This document shows, one piece after another, positions 1,581-56,685 of a stretch of 62,357 nucleotides of DNA. Made by a program: the position numbers and the translations under genes. The notes under the pieces are model-generated. The model ran no database searches and was not told the DNA's origin. It worked only from the letters and a program-made list of their open reading frames with translations. The stretch's first letter is position 1. Each line of letters opens with the position of its first letter. The stretch covers positions 1 to 62,357 of the forward strand of contig JAAFJU010000013.1 in NCBI GenBank assembly GCA_013298165.1, written 5' to 3'. The DNA comes from Synechococcales cyanobacterium bin31.maxbin.ball.101. GTDB taxonomy: Bacteria > Cyanobacteriota > Cyanobacteriia > Leptolyngbyales > Leptolyngbyaceae.

Positions 1581-1601
1581 GAAATCGTCCCCAATCCAGC
1601 A

Positions 1602-1634
1602 CCCCCAGAATTGGGGGCCGGGGGGCGGTTCGTC
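1602..1634 (+). repeat. Dispersed palindromic repeat, single copy
   Basis: Core CCCCCAGAATTGGGGG (1602-1617) is followed by ccggggggcggttcg. The same core with the same GC-rich flank recurs near 11.2, 14.7, 26.2 and 39.1 kb. Here it lies just past the stop of tic22. Confidence 0.85.
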
Positions 1635-1640
1635 AGAATC

Positions 1641-4579: not shown

Positions 4580-5560
4580 TTAAGGCCGTTGCCCGAAGCG
4601 CTGAATGAGTTCTTCTTGGGACAGTTGCATAACAGCCCTGACCCGATCGATCGGACTTAGGTTCAATAATGCCGGAACTACAGCGGCGAGTTTACGATCG
4701 ATAGTGCCAAATTTCACCAACAACATGCTTTCAAGGGTGGTGCGATCGCCCTCCTGCCGTCCTTCCTGCCGTCCTTCCTGCCGTCCTTCCTGCCGTCCTT
4801 CCTGCCGTCCTTCTTGCCGTCCGACTGCTATGCCTTCTCGGATGGTTTGATTGCGCCAGTCTTCGTAGAGGGCGTCGATGTTGAGAAGGGTTTCTTGGTC
4901 GTTGGTGGTGAGGTTGGGTTGGCTTTTTAGCATGATTCTGAGTTTGGTGATGTTTTCGCGGATGAAATCGGTTAGGGGTTGTTGGGGTAATTCTAGCAAT
5001 TCTTCAATGGCTTTGCGCTGAACTTCATCGCGACCAAGAAGCCGAAGTAGAAGGGTCTCAGGAATGACGGGAAGTTGGTGGACGACGACGAAACCGATCC
5101 GCAAGGTATCCCCGAAGAAATAGAAGCCTTTGGGCCATTTCTTTTTGGCGATCGCATTGCAGCCGTTCAGGGATTTCTCCGAAGCGGTGGGGACGATGAG
5201 CCAAAGTTGAGGCTGGTCTTGGGGTTTGATTTTTTGCTTCTCGCGTTTCGATCGTCGGGACCATTCGGCACGGACACGGCAGAGTTTTTCGATGCAGTGA
5301 AAGAGGTCTTCGGTGGAAATAGGATTGCGGAAGACTTCGATTAAGGAGGGTGCGATCACCATTTTGCCCAGTTGTCCGAGCAGTTCAATGGGTTGGCGAG
5401 ATTGTGGGATGAACCAGATATCGACTTGCAGGGCCTCACCCGGTGGGAGTTCAAAGCTGATTTCGATTTCTTGGCTGAAGGGCGAGAGCATTCCTTTCAG
5501 ATATTGTTTGGCAAACTGATCGTGGCGGTTTTTGGTCATGGCGATCGCAGGATTCATCAA
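4580..5560 (-). CDS. Cyanobacterial protein with GRQE repeat tract
   Basis: A 326-residue protein of a family abundant in filamentous cyanobacteria and often left as hypothetical. The N-terminal part has LPPGEALQVDIWFIPQ, LGQLGKMVIAPSLIEVFRN and LWLIVPTASEK, a layout resembling PD-(D/E)XK-like nuclease folds; I infer this from pattern only. The middle is helical (PETLLLRLLGRDEVQRKAIEELLELP). Residues about 242-267 are a run of GRQE units coded by a 12-bp tandem repeat. The C-terminus (LESMLLVKFGTIDRKLAAVV then LNLSPIDRVRAVMQLSQEEL) resembles the DUF4351-type tail of such proteins. It abuts the upstream PQQ-propeller gene with no gap. Confidence 0.6.
   Translation of the reverse strand: MMNPAIAMTKNRHDQFAKQYLKGMLSPFSQEIEISFELPPGEALQVDIWFIPQSRQPIELLGQLGKMVIAPSLIEVFRNPISTEDLFHCIEKLCRVRAEWSRRSKREKQKIKPQDQPQLWLIVPTASEKSLNGCNAIAKKKWPKGFYFFGDTLRIGFVVVHQLPVIPETLLLRLLGRDEVQRKAIEELLELPQQPLTDFIRENITKLRIMLKSQPNLTTNDQETLLNIDALYEDWRNQTIREGIAVGRQEGRQEGRQEGRQEGRQEGRQEGDRTTLESMLLVKFGTIDRKLAAVVPALLNLSPIDRVRAVMQLSQEELIQRFGQRP
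4753..4824. repeat. 12-bp tandem repeat inside a coding sequence
   Basis: Five perfect copies of cctgccgtcctt (4753-4812) plus one degenerate copy. The unit is a multiple of three, so copy-number change keeps the frame. It codes for GRQE units in the protein on the minus strand. Confidence 0.95.
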
Positions 5561-11135: not shown

Positions 11136-11142
11136 TTCTTTG

Positions 11143-11226
11143 GCGACCTGCCCCCCGGTCCCTAATTCTGGGGGAGCTAGAGTTCGGCCCAGTGTCCGGT
11201 TCCCCCAGAATTGGGGGTTAGGGGGC
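11143..11226. repeat. Inverted pair of the dispersed palindromic repeat
   Basis: A minus-oriented copy (about 11150-11176, one base diverged in the core) and a plus-oriented copy with a perfect core (11201-11216) face each other across about 25 bp. The same head-to-head arrangement occurs at 39040-39122. The right end runs into the glycosyltransferase gene, whose stop codon lies inside it. Confidence 0.85.
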
Positions 11227-12348
11227 TAATAATTTCGCAAGCTGTGATCCGATCGCTCCTTTATCAAAAATCTTCAAGCATTCCGATCGCAGATAGTCGC
11301 CATCGGTGCGTTGATCCCCGCCCTTCAGCATCTCGATCGTTGCCATGGCTACCTCATCGGGATCGCGGTGCGGCACTCGCCAGCCTAGCCTTCCATCTTG
11401 CAGCGGTTCCGCTGATCCGTCCGCATCTCCCGACAGGACCGGAACCCCGCAAGCCATCGCCTCCAAATAGACAATCCCGAACCCTTCCTGGGAGGGCATC
11501 ACGTAGGCATCGGCCAAATTGTAATGAGCCGCCAAATCCTTCGTCGCCACAAATCCCGCAAAAATCACCCGATCGGCCACTCCCAACTCCACCGCCAACG
11601 CCGCCAACCTCGGCTGGTCATCGCCGCGCCCGAGGATCAAATATGTAACATCTGGGACCGATCGTAAAATCTCCGGCAACGCCCGAAGGGTGACATCGAC
11701 GCCCTTGTACCGATCGCCCGACCACAGCCTTGCCACGGTCATCAGAACTTTTGAATCCTCCAAGCCATACTTTGCAATCCAATCCTGCGACTTCGGCTGT
11801 GGCTGAAACGCTTGACCATCGACGGCACAGTACAGAAACTCGACTTTTTCGGGTTCGATCTGGTTCGAGGCACAGAGCCGATCGCGGGAATAGCGGCTAA
11901 TCGTCCAAATCTTCGCACTAGCCTGCAATGCCTTCTGTTGCGATTTTCCCAACGGCTCCCAAACTTCCTTCCCGTAGGTCAACACTGTAAATGGAATCCC
12001 CAATGGCTGACAAATGGCCCGAATGACAGGCGCAAGATTAATATGTCCGCAATAGAGGTGGCTCGGCTTCGATCGCACCACATAGGCGACTAAGGCAGCA
12101 ATCAGTTTTAAACGACCCACTTGAGGCGACGGGTGTTTAAAAAAGTGAAAGTTGAGGTGGGGATCTGCGAAAGGATTGGGCATTTCGGCGCTGTCCCGCA
12201 ACAGAAAAATATCGGCAACAGTCTCATTCCCGCCTTGCGAAACCGCTGGTAGAGCCTTCGGCATTGCCCTCAGCAGGTCGCCCACATAGGACTGAATGCC
12301 ACCTTCACAGGACAAAATTTCTAAGAAAACGAACGCAATGCGGGACAT
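11218..12348 (-). CDS. Glycosyltransferase family 4
   Basis: A 376-residue GT-B glycosyltransferase. The N-terminal half carries the acceptor side (VFLEILSCEGGIQSYVGDLL). The C-terminal half has the GT4 signature: MTVARLWSGDRYKGVDVTLR, YLILGRGDDQPRLAALAVEL, and the EX7E motif in SQEGFGIVYLEAMACGVPVL, which binds the nucleotide sugar. It probably acts in cell-surface polysaccharide or glycolipid synthesis; donor and acceptor cannot be read. The last codons (KLLAP-stop) are supplied by the edge of the dispersed repeat, so the C-terminus may have been altered by the element. Confidence 0.88.
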   Translation of the reverse strand: MSRIAFVFLEILSCEGGIQSYVGDLLRAMPKALPAVSQGGNETVADIFLLRDSAEMPNPFADPHLNFHFFKHPSPQVGRLKLIAALVAYVVRSKPSHLYCGHINLAPVIRAICQPLGIPFTVLTYGKEVWEPLGKSQQKALQASAKIWTISRYSRDRLCASNQIEPEKVEFLYCAVDGQAFQPQPKSQDWIAKYGLEDSKVLMTVARLWSGDRYKGVDVTLRALPEILRSVPDVTYLILGRGDDQPRLAALAVELGVADRVIFAGFVATKDLAAHYNLADAYVMPSQEGFGIVYLEAMACGVPVLSGDADGSAEPLQDGRLGWRVPHRDPDEVAMATIEMLKGGDQRTDGDYLRSECLKIFDKGAIGSQLAKLLAP

Positions 12349-12909: not shown

Positions 12910-13206
12910 ATGAACCGATCGCAAGTTCTCGCCATTCTCCAAACGCATCTCCCCACGATCGAAGCCATGGGAGTCCGATCGCTTGCGTTGTTCGGATCGG
13001 TTGCTCGTGATGAAGCCTCACCGGAAAGCGATATTGATTTTGCCGTAGAGTTCGATGCTCCGCCAACGTTTGATGGATATATGAATTTGAAGATTCTTTT
13101 AGAAGATACGCTCGATCGGGATATCGATCTGATTCCCATTCAATCCATGAAGCCAGAAGTCAAAGCAACCATGCAAAACGATCTTTACTATGTCACGCAA
13201 AATTAG
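12910..13206 (+). CDS. mntA: MntA-type minimal nucleotidyltransferase (antitoxin)
   Basis: A 98-residue MNT-fold protein with the motif GSVARDEASPESDIDFAVEF (residues about 29-48), containing the GSX10DXD signature with both aspartates, and a third acidic strand DIDLIP. In HepT-MntA modules the nucleotidyltransferase neutralises the HEPN toxin by AMPylating a tyrosine. It overlaps hepT by 17 bp, the standard arrangement. The catalytic residues look intact. Confidence 0.87.
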   Translation: MNRSQVLAILQTHLPTIEAMGVRSLALFGSVARDEASPESDIDFAVEFDAPPTFDGYMNLKILLEDTLDRDIDLIPIQSMKPEVKATMQNDLYYVTQN

Positions 13207-13528
13207 TCTTTATCTCAACGATATTCTGAAAAGCTGTGGGAAAATTACGACCTACACCCAGGAGATGAACTATGAAGCGTTTCTGGAAGACGATCGCACC
13301 TACGAAGCGGTATTGCTGAATCTTCAAATCATTGGCGAGTCTGTTAAAAATATCCCGAATGACGTTCGCGATCGATCGCCTGAAATTGAGTGGCGAAAAA
13401 TTGCTGGGTTGCGAGACATGATTGCTCATGCCTATTTTCAAATTGAACCAGGAATTGTTTGGGATATCGTTCAAACCAAAATTCAGCCCTTACAAAAAGC
13501 TGTCTTAGAATTAACGGAACTCCTCTAG
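13190..13528 (+). CDS. hepT: HepT-type HEPN toxin
   Basis: A 112-residue helical protein of the HepT family. The RX4HXY ribonuclease motif is visible as R-DMIA-H-A-Y within GLRDMIAHAYF (about residue 75-85), and the N-terminal KISLYLNDILKSCGKITTYT region is typical. HEPN toxins of this class act on RNA; the tyrosine in the motif is the residue AMPylated by the partner MntA. The complete motif and the overlapping gene pair suggest a functional module. Confidence 0.87.
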   Translation: MSRKISLYLNDILKSCGKITTYTQEMNYEAFLEDDRTYEAVLLNLQIIGESVKNIPNDVRDRSPEIEWRKIAGLRDMIAHAYFQIEPGIVWDIVQTKIQPLQKAVLELTELL

Positions 13529-13534
13529 TTTGTC

Positions 13535-16042
13535 CTACTTTGGATATACCACCGTCACTCCTGTCCCGCCGTCATATTTTTCCGCAGGTTCAAATTTCGC
13601 GACTCGATCGTGCCGCTTTAAATAAGCATGAACGCCTTGCTTGAGCTTGCCTGTGCCGTGGCCGTGGATGATCCAAATGGGTCCATGATTCGCGGAAATG
13701 GCGCGATCGATCACAATTTCGGCATCCGCCACCCGCTGTCCCCGAATGTCAAACGTCGTGCTTTCGGTTCGCACCGCCGGAGCAGAGGGAGTTGGGTTTT
13801 GTGGAGGTTGGTTTTTAGCTTTTCGCTCTTCTTTGGGTTTCTCTTCGCGTTCGACTTTTTGACCCTGCAGTGATTCGATTTCGTAGACCGAAACGTTCAT
13901 TTTCATAATCCCAAACCGCACCGTGAGTTCTTCCCCCTCACTCGCCAAAACCTCTGCCGTCTGCCCAATGCGCGGAATCCTCACCCGATCGCCCACCTTC
14001 GGCATAAATCCAGGCTTTTTCTTTTTGGTTTCAGCGGAGGGGAGGTGTTTGTCGGCGAGTTTGTTGAGGCGATCGGTAGCGAGTTGCGCGTCTTGTCCCG
14101 TCGGAGTCCCTTTTTGCAATTGCTTGATCACCTGAGCAACCTGCGATTTGGCATCCAGCAGCATTTTTTGCACAGCATCTTCTTGCGCTTGTTTGAGTTC
14201 GCGTTCGCGCTCTTTTAAGACCTGTGCTTTTGCCGTCACTTGCTCATAGAAAAACTCCGCTTGTTTGATTAACCGTTCCGCTTCTTTGGCTTTCTCTTCC
14301 TGCTCTCGCCGCTGCGCTTCCAGACCTGCAATGACTTCGTTAACATCTTGGCTCATGCCGCCGATGTAGCCACGGGCGTCTTCTACGATCGCAGACTGCA
14401 ATCCTAAGCGAGATGCGATCGTTAATGCATTCGATCGTCCGGGGATTCCCCACAGCAATCGATAGGTCGGCTCTAGTAGCACATCATCAAACTCCACCGA
14501 CGCATTTTCAAACCGTTCATCTTGATATTTCAATGCCTTCAGTTCACCGAAGTGTGTGGTGGCGATCGTCAATTTTGCACGGTTGGCGAGATGTTTTAGC
14601 AATGCGATCGCTAATGCAGAACCCTCGGACGGATCAGTTCCCGCCCCCACTTCATCCAGTAAGACTAATGCATTGGACCGATCGGCAACAATTCCACTAA
14701 ATTCCGGTTCCGGCTCCCCCAGAATTGGGGGCTGGGGGGCCATCCGGGTTTCTGCAACATCCGCATCCAATGCATCCAAAATCCGTCCAATCCGACGAAT
14801 ATGTCCCGAAAACGTAGACAAACTTTGCTGCAACGATTGCTCATCCCCAATATCCGCCAACACCTGCCCAAACCAAGGCAATTCCACAGGTTCCCGCGCT
14901 GGGACAAACAACCCCACCTTCGACATCAACACCGCCAACGCCAAGGTTTTTAACGTAACTGTCTTACCACCTGTGTTTGGACCTGTGATCGCAACGACGC
15001 GAATCTTTGGATCAATATTCAAATGCGTCGGAATCACCGCGCGGCCTTCTTCATTTTTATGTTGCCAAACCAGCAACGGATGGCGCAAATTGCGCAAGGT
15101 AATATTTTGATTGCCCGCTGCCGCCTCGTCCCAATCAATAAAGGTGGGCGGATTAGCTTCAAGCCAGTAGCTATAGCGCGATCGGGCTGTTGCTAAATCC
15201 AACATCGTACAAATAGCCACAAGATGCTCCAGGTCCTCTTGAACCTCTGCAACGAGTGCCGTCAACTTCCGCCGCACGGCTTCTTCTTCCGCTTGTTCTT
15301 GACGTAAAAACTGCCGCAATGCATTGTTCATTTGCACAGTGGACTGCGGCTCGATGAACAAGGTCGCCCCACTGGTCGAGGCATCGTGAACAATGCCGGG
15401 AATGTGTTCTTTATAGTTTGATTTAATCGATAGGACGTAGCGCCCGTCGCGCTGAGTGATCACGGATTCTTGAATCGCACTGGAATGGCGACTCATCATC
15501 TTGTTCAAAATGTCCAAAATCCGATCGCGGGTTGATCGGATCTTCTCCCGAATGTCCGTCAGCTTCGGACTAGCCCGCTCTGTGACTTTCCCCCGATCGT
15601 CAATACAGCGATAAATCTCTTGTTCAATCTCTGGATAGGTCCGCAGATCGGCCACCATCTCTAAAAGCGTGGGCACGTTTTCTGCATTTTCGATCGCTCG
15701 ACGCAGGGTTCTGGCCCCGGACAAGGTGGTGGAAATATTCAGCAGTTCTTCGCCCGAGAGCAAGCCTTGCAGGGACGATCGTTCCAGCGCATCCCCAATA
15801 TCCTGAATCCCCCCAAAGGGAAGTCCCCCAGAGACCGATTGATCCAACTCGTAGGTCTCACGGGTCTGGGCGAGGAGGTGCAGGGTCTCTTCTTTGGTCG
15901 CAGGAATTTGAAGGTGATGGGCGGCGATCGACCCGAGTTTTGTCGCGGCGAAGGTGGCCAAGTGCTGACACAGGCGCGACCATTCCAATAAATTGAGGGT
16001 TTCTTGCTGGATCAAGGGAGGTGGTGGAGACGATCGGGACAT
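13535..16042 (-). CDS. mutS2: MutS2 endonuclease / ribosome-rescue ATPase
   Basis: An 835-residue MutS2: clamp/lever helices, ATPase with P-loop GPNTGGKT (354-361), Walker B LVLLDEVGAGTD (459-470), a long coiled coil (about 560-640), a KOW-like segment (PKVGDRVRIPRIGQTAEV) and a C-terminal Smr domain with DIRGQRVADAEI and IIHGHGTGKL. MutS2 suppresses recombination and, in Bacillus, splits collided ribosomes. It has an extra stretch of about 25 residues (428-456) just before Walker B, where usual MutS2 proteins go almost directly from the lever helix to LVLLDE. That extra peptide (with PQPPILGEPEPE) is coded by the dispersed repeat at 14711-14743 in frame. All key ATPase residues remain. Confidence 0.93.
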   Translation of the reverse strand: MSRSSPPPPLIQQETLNLLEWSRLCQHLATFAATKLGSIAAHHLQIPATKEETLHLLAQTRETYELDQSVSGGLPFGGIQDIGDALERSSLQGLLSGEELLNISTTLSGARTLRRAIENAENVPTLLEMVADLRTYPEIEQEIYRCIDDRGKVTERASPKLTDIREKIRSTRDRILDILNKMMSRHSSAIQESVITQRDGRYVLSIKSNYKEHIPGIVHDASTSGATLFIEPQSTVQMNNALRQFLRQEQAEEEAVRRKLTALVAEVQEDLEHLVAICTMLDLATARSRYSYWLEANPPTFIDWDEAAAGNQNITLRNLRHPLLVWQHKNEEGRAVIPTHLNIDPKIRVVAITGPNTGGKTVTLKTLALAVLMSKVGLFVPAREPVELPWFGQVLADIGDEQSLQQSLSTFSGHIRRIGRILDALDADVAETRMAPQPPILGEPEPEFSGIVADRSNALVLLDEVGAGTDPSEGSALAIALLKHLANRAKLTIATTHFGELKALKYQDERFENASVEFDDVLLEPTYRLLWGIPGRSNALTIASRLGLQSAIVEDARGYIGGMSQDVNEVIAGLEAQRREQEEKAKEAERLIKQAEFFYEQVTAKAQVLKERERELKQAQEDAVQKMLLDAKSQVAQVIKQLQKGTPTGQDAQLATDRLNKLADKHLPSAETKKKKPGFMPKVGDRVRIPRIGQTAEVLASEGEELTVRFGIMKMNVSVYEIESLQGQKVEREEKPKEERKAKNQPPQNPTPSAPAVRTESTTFDIRGQRVADAEIVIDRAISANHGPIWIIHGHGTGKLKQGVHAYLKRHDRVAKFEPAEKYDGGTGVTVVYPK
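14711..14743 (+). repeat. Dispersed palindromic repeat inside mutS2
   Basis: A perfect core CCCCCAGAATTGGGGG (14716-14731) with the flanks ccggct and ctggggggc shared with the intergenic copies. It is read in frame, on the antisense strand relative to the repeat, as part of the MutS2 insertion at residues about 434-445. Confidence 0.9.
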
Positions 16043-26081: not shown

Positions 26082-26103
26082 CTTATCGCCATGACCCGTA
26101 AAT

Positions 26104-28092
26104 ATGAAACTCTTCTTTCTTGCGTTTAACACTACGATCGTCACTGTTCTCACGATCGCCCCTGCCATTGCAGAACCCCCGGCGAACCGCCCCCCGGCCC
26201 CCAATTCTGGGGGAGTTAGAGTGGTAGAAAAACTTGATGTTCAATTGGATCAGCCTGTTTATGAAACAATCGCTGATTCAACAGAACCTAAAATCACTGT
26301 CGTAGAACTGATTGTGAAAGGGGTTACGGGAGATCTGGAAGATGAAATCTATCGGGTGATTCAAACCAGGCCGGGACAATCGGTGAGCCGATCGCAATTG
26401 CAAGAAGATGTTGAACGCATTATTAAAACAGGGCGATTTGCCAAGGTGCAGGCGGTGCCTGAGGAGACGGCTTTGGGGGTGCGGGTGACGTTCACAGTAG
26501 AGCCGAATCCGGTGTTGAAACAGGTTCAATTGACTGGACGAAAGGTGATTCCAGAACAAGTTGTTGAAGATGCCTTTCGATCGCAGTATGGTCAACCCCT
26601 CGATCGTAATACCTTCCAAATGGGCATCAAAACCTTAAACAAATGGTATCAAGACAATGGCTACATCCTCGCGCAGGTGGCTGATACGAGCAATATTACG
26701 CCCGACGGTGTGGCGACGATCGAGGTTGCAGAAGGGGAAGTGGAAGATATTCAAATTCAATTTCTCAACCGAGAGGGCGAAGAGAAAGATGCTCAAGGCA
26801 ATCCCATTAAAGGCACAACCCGATCGTTCATCATCACTCGTGAAATGGAAACACGATCGGGCGAAATAGTGAATCGCAATAGACTGCAGGCTGATTTGCA
26901 ACGCATTGCGGGATTGAGAATTTTTAAAGATGTCAAAGTGAGTTTTGCGCCGGGAAGCGAGCCGCGCAAGGTGATTGTCGTCATTCAACCGATCGAACAA
27001 TCCAATATCACCGCAACACCCGGCATCAACTGGAGTTCTCGCACGGGGTTTTCGGCGATCGGCAGTCTGCAAGCAGGCAACATTGGTGGCAATAACCAAA
27101 AGCTCAGTGCTGAACTGGAACTGGGCGATCGGACCTTAGCTTATGATCTCAGTTTTACCGATCCTTGGATTGGCGGCGATCGGTATCGCACAGGCTATAC
27201 GGCGCGGGTGTTTCGGCAACTCGGGACTTCGCTAAATTTTGAAGGCGGTAAGACGGATGTAAAACTGGCGAACGGCGATCGACCGCGCATTCTTCGCACA
27301 GGCGGGGCGGTGACGTTTAATCGATCGCTCAGTCCAGACCCCTTAAAACGATCGGATTGGGTTGCGTCCTTAGGATTGCAATATCAAAACATCGAACTCC
27401 AAGATGCCAGTCGCAATAGCGTTTCCAAAGATGCCCTAGGCAATAATCTGAGTGCCAGTGGGACTGGACGCGATGACTTCCTGTCGATTCCGCTGACTCT
27501 CACCTACGACAAGCGTAACGATGCCCTTACGCCTACCCAAGGTTCTGTCTTCCGGTTCTCGTCTGAGCAATCCATTCCGATCGGTCAAAGCAGCATTTTT
27601 TCCAATGCGCTACGGGCCAGTTACAGCACCTACGTCCCTGCAAATTTACTCCAGATCACGCCCGGTTGTCGCAAAAAAGATCCGAGTGCGATCGACTGTC
27701 CTCAAGCCTTAGCATTCAATCTGACAGGCGGTACCATTTTAGGCAAACTTCCGCCCTACCAGGCGTTTTCCCTAGGCGGGAGCAACTCGGTGCGGGGCTA
27801 TGAAGATGGAGATGTTGGGAGCGCCCGCAGCTTTATTCAAGCCTCAGCGGAATATCGATTTCCGGTTCTTTCGCTGATTAGTGGGGCGCTATTTGTCGAT
27901 GCCGCAACCGATTTTGGCAGCGGGCGCAGCGTGATCGGGACACCGGGAGAGGTGCGGAGCAAATCGGGCAATGGATTGGGATATGGATTGGGAGTCCGAA
28001 TCAATTCGCCATTAGGCCCGATTCGGCTCGATTATGGCTGGAACGATCGGGGTGAAAACAAACTGCACTTCGGCTTGGGTGAACGGTTTTAA
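26104..28092 (+). CDS. Omp85 / BamA outer-membrane assembly protein
   Basis: A 662-residue Omp85 protein: signal peptide (residues 1-23, ending AIA), a Pro-rich linker, three POTRA domains (about 64-136, 137-213 and 214-300) and a C-terminal 16-strand barrel ending HFGLGERF with terminal Phe, as needed for outer-membrane insertion. The barrel has the conserved VRGYEDGDVG element of the lid loop. It inserts beta-barrel proteins into the outer membrane; three POTRAs are the cyanobacterial form, related to chloroplast Toc75. The linker residues NRPPAPNSGG (28-37) are coded by a copy of the dispersed repeat, inserted in frame just after the signal peptide. Confidence 0.93.
   Translation: MKLFFLAFNTTIVTVLTIAPAIAEPPANRPPAPNSGGVRVVEKLDVQLDQPVYETIADSTEPKITVVELIVKGVTGDLEDEIYRVIQTRPGQSVSRSQLQEDVERIIKTGRFAKVQAVPEETALGVRVTFTVEPNPVLKQVQLTGRKVIPEQVVEDAFRSQYGQPLDRNTFQMGIKTLNKWYQDNGYILAQVADTSNITPDGVATIEVAEGEVEDIQIQFLNREGEEKDAQGNPIKGTTRSFIITREMETRSGEIVNRNRLQADLQRIAGLRIFKDVKVSFAPGSEPRKVIVVIQPIEQSNITATPGINWSSRTGFSAIGSLQAGNIGGNNQKLSAELELGDRTLAYDLSFTDPWIGGDRYRTGYTARVFRQLGTSLNFEGGKTDVKLANGDRPRILRTGGAVTFNRSLSPDPLKRSDWVASLGLQYQNIELQDASRNSVSKDALGNNLSASGTGRDDFLSIPLTLTYDKRNDALTPTQGSVFRFSSEQSIPIGQSSIFSNALRASYSTYVPANLLQITPGCRKKDPSAIDCPQALAFNLTGGTILGKLPPYQAFSLGGSNSVRGYEDGDVGSARSFIQASAEYRFPVLSLISGALFVDAATDFGSGRSVIGTPGEVRSKSGNGLGYGLGVRINSPLGPIRLDYGWNDRGENKLHFGLGERF
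26181..26220 (-). repeat. Dispersed palindromic repeat inside omp85
   Basis: Core CCCCCAATTCTGGGGG at 26198-26213, with the left flank ggcgaaccgccccccgg that is the reverse complement of the flank ccggggggcggttcgtc at 1618-1634. It is read in frame as the Pro-rich linker after the Omp85 signal peptide. Confidence 0.9.
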
Positions 28093-32168: not shown

Positions 32169-32252
32169 GCCTTGATTTAGACGATCGGCACTCAGTAGAT
32201 CTATGTAATTAAACCTACGATGGGTTTGGGGTAGTCCTTACGGACGTAAACT

Positions 32253-32365
32253 ACGACTCCGCTCACCCCACGAATCCCAGGCTTGAGGACTGAGCGGAGT
32301 CGAAGTCCGGGTTATGCCCACTAAATCCTGAGTTGAGGACTGAGCGGAGTCGAAGTCCGGGTTAT
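32253..32365. repeat. 33-bp direct repeat with inverted partner
   Basis: Two exact 33-bp copies (32283-32315 and 32333-32365) beginning ttgaggactgagcggagt are spaced 50 bp start to start. An inverted partial copy, cgactccgctca, lies at 32254-32265. The motif TGAGCGGAGTCGAAG is a widespread small bacterial repeat, able to form a hairpin with the inverted copy. Confidence 0.85.
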
Positions 32366-39039: not shown

Positions 39040-39122
39040 GCCCCCTAACCCCCAATTCTGGGGGGACATGAAATGAATCGATCTCCGGCTCCCCCAGAAT
39101 TGGGGGCTGGGGGGCGGTTCGC
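39040..39122. repeat. Inverted pair of the dispersed palindromic repeat
   Basis: A minus-oriented copy (core 39050-39065) and a plus-oriented copy (core 39091-39106) face each other across about 25 bp, the same arrangement as at 11143-11226. Each core is itself a perfect palindrome around AATT. It sits in the thiC-queF gap. Confidence 0.92.
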
Positions 39123-39145
39123 CAAGGCATCAATAACGTATAAAA

Positions 39146-56636: not shown

Positions 56637-56685
56637 TTAATTTAAAGGCCGAAGATTGCATTCAACCTTCGGCCTTTAAATTAAA
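56637..56685. terminator. Bidirectional terminator
   Basis: TAATTTAAAGGCCGAAG pairs with CTTCGGCCTTTAAATTA around about 13 nt. AT-rich stem ends give T-runs on both strands between the convergent methyltransferase and PEP-CTERM genes. Confidence 0.9.

Follow-up and report, generated by a model that had tools for sequence, protein, structure and literature searches.

A dispersed palindromic repeat carried in frame within a hypervariable loop of a cyanobacterial MutS2

The locus described here raises the question of how a short dispersed DNA repeat comes to be read as protein in the middle of a core ATPase, and why it persists there. The gene concerned, mutS2, lies in the window, the whole analysed stretch of 62,357 nucleotides, which is one of the 356 contigs that make up the 5.39-Mb draft genome of a cyanobacterium. 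Its product contains MutS domain V (MutS_V), Smr and MSSS SH3-like domains (Pfam PF00488, PF01713, PF20297) and aligns over its full length to solved MutS2 chains, which identifies it as a MutS2 protein. Directly beside mutS2, at 12910-13528 of the window, a nucleotidyltransferase (MntA-like) gene is paired with a HepT-like RNase gene, likely forming a toxin-antitoxin module. The features of the locus and the repeat copies of the window are collected in Table 1.

Table 1. Position of mutS2, its loop and the repeat copies in the window
Feature	Position	Strand	Basis or remark
mutS2	13535..16042	-	ORF intact, 835 aa; Pfam domains; relatives
Walker B segment LVLLDEVG	14645..14668	-	Directly after the loop; invariant columns L459, L461-E464, G466 (alignment A1)
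Hypervariable MutS2 loop DADVAETRMAPQPPILGEPEPEFSGIVADRSNA, 33 residues	14669..14767	-	From helix ...HIRRIGRILDAL to Walker B
Inferred insertion, 23 codons (net 69 nt) more than in either same-genus gene	14685..14759	-	63 nt between TGTTGC copies
Repeat copy in mutS2, 45 nt	14708..14752	+	Comparison with other genomic copies
Repeat core CCCCCAGAATTGGGGG	14716..14731	+	Hairpin CCCCCA/TGGGGG
Repeat copy	1595..1635	+	No long ORF across
Inverted repeat pair	11140..11235	.	End of glycosyltransferase-like gene (11218-12348 -)
Copy in Omp85/Toc75-like gene (26095-28089 +)	26181..26222	-	In frame near N-terminus, after signal-peptide-like segment
Inverted repeat pair	39040..39125	.	No long ORF across

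The repeat in mutS2 is real, as the original prediction had claimed, and it is carried in frame inside the intact 835-aa reading frame. Its extent had been given as 14702-14743; comparison with other copies places it at 14708-14752, reaching slightly further at the high end. The copy is built as TTCCGGCT-CCCCCAGAATTGGGGG-CTGGGGGGCCATCCGGGTTTC, and its tail CTGGGGGGCCATCCGGGTTTC (GGGGGGCCATCCGGGTTTC) recurs in the genomic copy L120:15006. What had been called a mobile palindrome is an approximate one, with a 6-bp stem (CCCCCA/TGGGGG) and GAAT in the centre. Across the 5.39 Mb of the host genome, 287 exact cores were counted, and 353 when up to one mismatch was allowed, far more than chance would give, which corresponds to the short, palindromic, high-copy character of REP/REPIN elements; the control, in which the core pattern was read backwards, gave 0 matches in the same 5.39 Mb. 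The consensus of the repeat is TCCGGCT-core-CTGGGGGGCGGTTCGCCAG. A search of the window against Rfam gave no match, and the repeat sequences, searched as text in the literature, returned only primer-like chance matches among the papers listed.

Two genomes of the same genus contain 7 and 1 exact cores, against 287 in the host; because of this difference, the family has most likely expanded recently and in a lineage-specific manner. The mobility that the original prediction ascribed to the repeat is likewise suggested by copy-number differences among sister species, transposition itself not having been seen. In sampled stretches totalling 440 kb, the 87 copies present form 25 inverted pairs and 37 singles. 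Such singles, alongside inverted pairs separated by short spacers, are also seen with REPINs, which are present in Nostoc punctiforme (PMC3116915); this repeat differs from them in that no RAYT transposase is linked to it and in that the copy in mutS2 stands alone, not in a pair. A RAYT transposase was considered as the mobiliser and rejected, since presence of the gene does not track repeat copy number across 43 genomes, and the one RAYT-like gene of the host genome has no flanking repeat copies. A REP-associated-type tyrosine transposase gene (L240, G000:C125:23432-23932) is present in the host genome but was found in neither same-genus genome, and the nearest 1.5 kb or so around it contains no repeat copies. 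Very small mobile repeated elements have been described in cyanobacterial genomes by Elhai et al. 2008 (via PMC3733652 and PMC3116915), and this repeat resembles them by description. The window also contains other repetitive DNA, including a 12-bp tandem repeat at 4737-4832 that codes for (QEGR)n in a 326-aa protein (4580-5560, minus strand), another dispersed-looking intergenic repeat at 32250-32365, in which a 49-nt unit occurs twice in tandem and contains inverted segments (GGACTGAGCGGAGTCGAAGTCC), and a terminator-like hairpin at 56637-56684, in which 4 nt separate the arms of a 22-nt inverted repeat (TTAATTTAAAGGCCGAAGATTG).

Most of the 87 copies in the 440-kb sample lie outside recognisable genes, a proportion that is not unbiased because the sample was picked around repeat copies, and several are in frame within Pfam-recognised genes. 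According to predicted translation and Pfam, at least five other genes of the host have in-frame copies: an inverted pair in a pyridine nucleotide-disulphide oxidoreductase, two tandem copies in an X-Pro dipeptidyl-peptidase (S15 peptidase), a copy in the segment that links the OHCU decarboxylase and M20 peptidase parts of a fusion, a pair in a phosphorylase-family protein and a copy in a HEAT-repeat protein. In four cases (oxidoreductase, peptidase, phosphorylase and HEAT protein) the repeat peptide is absent from the orthologues of the same genus, and MutS2 and these four genes share the behaviour of Rickettsia RPEs, being conserved genes with an in-frame repeat that their orthologues do not have. 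RPEs are dispersed palindromes that occur in frame in unrelated housekeeping genes and are thought to be compatible with protein structure (PMC10969869, citing Ogata 2000 and 2002). The likeness is one of description: RPEs are about 150 bp long, nearly half of them intragenic, and encode a conserved peptide, whereas this repeat has a unit of about 45 nt, lies for the most part outside genes and is read in various frames. The in-frame copies are read in different frames among genes, which makes it unlikely that any one peptide has been selected for.

The history of the MutS2 copy can be followed in close relatives. Both same-genus MutS2 proteins are 89% identical to that of the window and lack the repeat; their loop, DALDEEGVEQANALVLLDE, has 10 residues, whereas that of the window, DALDADVAETRMAPQPPILGEPEPEFSGIVADRSNALVLLDE, has 33, a difference of 23. 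An insertion of about 25 residues had been proposed, with empty-site alleles expected in close relatives, and the comparison bears this out: the extra segment comprises 23 residues (69 nt) and both same-genus genes have the short, repeat-free loop. Had all relatives shared one length here with unrelated DNA, there would have been no insertion to speak of; the lengths found were 10 and 33 residues. The extra segment reads ...MAPQPPILGEPEPE..., and APQPPILGEPEPE forms a stretch of the predicted loop peptide. On the coding strand, a direct repeat, TGTTGC, lies at + coordinates 14754-14759 and 14685-14690, an offset of exactly 69 nt, and joining the flanks at TGTTGC yields DALDADVADRSNALVLLDE, equal in length to the 10-residue loop of the sisters. 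Similarity to L120:15006 stops 1 nt short of this inferred junction. When the flanks were shuffled, about 1.2% of trials (chance about 0.012) yielded a direct repeat of this kind at the 69-nt offset. Around other repeat copies, singles or pairs, no excess of flanking direct repeats indicative of target duplication was found, and for this reason the TGTTGC duplication is only suggestive and may be due to chance. The recognisable repeat accounts for 45 of the 69 extra nt and the other 24 nt do not belong to it; the next outgroup MutS2 (78% identical) has a loop of 48 residues without the repeat. These comparisons show that mutS2 of the window has an in-frame insertion relative to the same-genus genes, and suggest direct insertion as the event.

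The site of the insertion, between a helix and Walker B, had been correctly predicted. The helix is the one that follows the signature motif, and at this position sequence alignment leaves only about one residue in the solved MutS2 structures. An AlphaFold2 model of the window MutS2, computed from a 36-sequence alignment and weak overall (mean 68, pTM 0.47), has coil at residues 434-460 with pLDDT below 50 at 431-458, in keeping with the anticipated flexible loop.

Comparison across the phylum indicates that this loop is hypervariable well beyond the host. In a set of 101 distinct MutS2 genes from cyanobacteria, the segment from the helix after the signature motif to Walker B can be as short as 4 or as long as 96 residues, with a median of 26, and both of its flanks have invariant residues in the cyanobacterial MutS2 alignment. 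About seven further repeat families occupy the same loop in other cyanobacteria. They include the palindrome GTAGAGACG..CGTCTCTAC, found in four hosts with 155-275 genomic copies, CTCAGCA arrays (769 and 534 genomic copies), a 33-nt element (27 genomic copies), GGGGCTA arrays (19 copies), GGGGATC arrays (about 250, a figure from the control column of the GGGGCTA count) and, among further arrays, the Moorena-type AACCTTC arrays. In samples of 1-2% of the genome, recurrence of loop DNA was detected in about 7 of the 17 genomes tested and not in the others, so that some but not all of the long loops can be tied to dispersed repeats. On a MutS2 tree made without the loop sequence, the repeat-carrying label requires at least 10 changes, 8 of them forced by well-supported branches, and the loop switches between palindrome and arrays inside a single tight Calothrix-type clade. 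The loop is, on these alignments and tree mappings, an apparent landing spot for unrelated repeats that has been filled repeatedly across cyanobacteria. A search of open-licence literature yielded no description of the MutS2 loop. In three loops of Calothrix/Dulcicalothrix (L044, L049 and L050), perfect or near-perfect coding palindromes stand at one site with near-identical flanks and different centres; the arms are altered together (GCGACATGTCGC in L049 vs GTGATTAATCAC in L050), which suggests template-switch correction or repeated replacement.

The explanation that fits these observations best, and that is very probably correct, is an RPE/REP-like insertion that was amplified in the lineage and kept in mutS2 because a disordered surface loop tolerates it. 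A small hairpin-forming REP/REPIN-like repeat, present as singles and inverted pairs, would have amplified recently in the host lineage and inserted widely, most insertions in genes being removed afterwards. One unit would have entered mutS2, and the frame was retained because the net gain is 69 nt. In-frame insertions within disordered surface loops would persist, and the MutS2 loop would be such a place, where an insert between two conserved ATPase motifs may consist of almost any peptide; loops of this kind would record whichever repeats amplify in a given genome. Tolerance of the loop, rather than a special property of this repeat, is the likeliest reason for its survival, because the site is hypervariable in all cyanobacteria. 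The insert peptide is presumably neutral and MutS2 presumably functions normally.

An unlikely alternative history is that the loop grew by ordinary slippage, duplication and drift and that, instead of a mobile unit inserting, another copy served as the source of its repeat-like part through gene conversion or template switching. Tandem or inverted micro-repeats do form the loops of many relatives, the 24 extra nt outside the repeat would be accounted for, and the joint change of both arms between the L049 and L050 palindromes is what template-switch correction predicts. Against such piecemeal growth stand the 45-nt unit, the junction, which matches the point where homology to another copy stops, and the direct repeat at the offset of the length difference, all of which favour insertion.

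Selection for a hairpin, in RNA or DNA, has been weighed in two forms. That the loop is a phylum-wide site keeping hairpins on purpose, tuning MutS2 synthesis or the recognition of structured nucleic acid, is very unlikely; if true, the gene of a factor for ribosome rescue and anti-recombination would carry a purposeful hairpin within its coding sequence. It is also very unlikely that this repeat in particular was selected as a hairpin regulating MutS2, for instance because ribosomes move more slowly along the mRNA of this ribosome-rescue factor. Such regulation would be in line with the report on B. subtilis, in which collided ribosomes are split by MutS2 (PMC10897456), and with an enrichment of RNA-hairpin outliers (z <= -3) in cyanobacterial loops: they number 13 among 101 loops and 7 among 569 windows taken as controls from the same genes (Fisher p 3e-7, in a test that treats related genomes as independent, which they are not). 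However, most loops have no unusual fold, a rank test giving no significant overall shift in RNA fold energy and only a heavy tail; the window mutS2 copy itself folds moderately to weakly (z -1.8 to -2.15), is missing from both same-genus relatives and belongs to a repeat family that also occurs in unrelated genes. Chance similarity or misassembly at the repeat can hardly be credited at all: the genome is a draft of 356 contigs, but the core is exact, near-identity to another copy spans about 44 nt, the reversed control gave 0, and the gene continues intact to either side of the segment within a single 62-kb contig, with the frame kept over 69 nt.

The insertion into mutS2 extends a pattern that is known from other bacteria. 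GTAG/CGTC-tagged REPs are palindromes of 20-40 bp that occur within ORFs including uvrA, uvrB and recB, and genes of DNA synthesis and repair are prominent among the ORFs that contain them (PMC3733652). The repeat described here has neither a GTAG nor a CGTC tag at its consensus ends, and MutS2 is not named in the relevant passage of that source. In two Xanthomonas species, different REPs lie at approximately the same recB site (PMC3733652); there the case involves two species, whereas in the MutS2 loop many unrelated repeats share one site across a whole phylum. In-frame palindromes in repair genes were thus already known, and what appears to be new is that unrelated repeats have come to occupy the same loop again and again across the phylum.

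The locus provides a clear case in which non-coding repeat DNA has apparently become protein sequence, with empty alleles in sister genomes. The MutS2 loop can be regarded as an experiment that nature has repeated with unrelated repeats, through which the tolerance of a core ATPase for foreign sequence becomes testable. The same applies to the ideas that such loops may serve as neutral archives of genomic repeats and that intragenic palindromes may be kept perfect at the DNA level.
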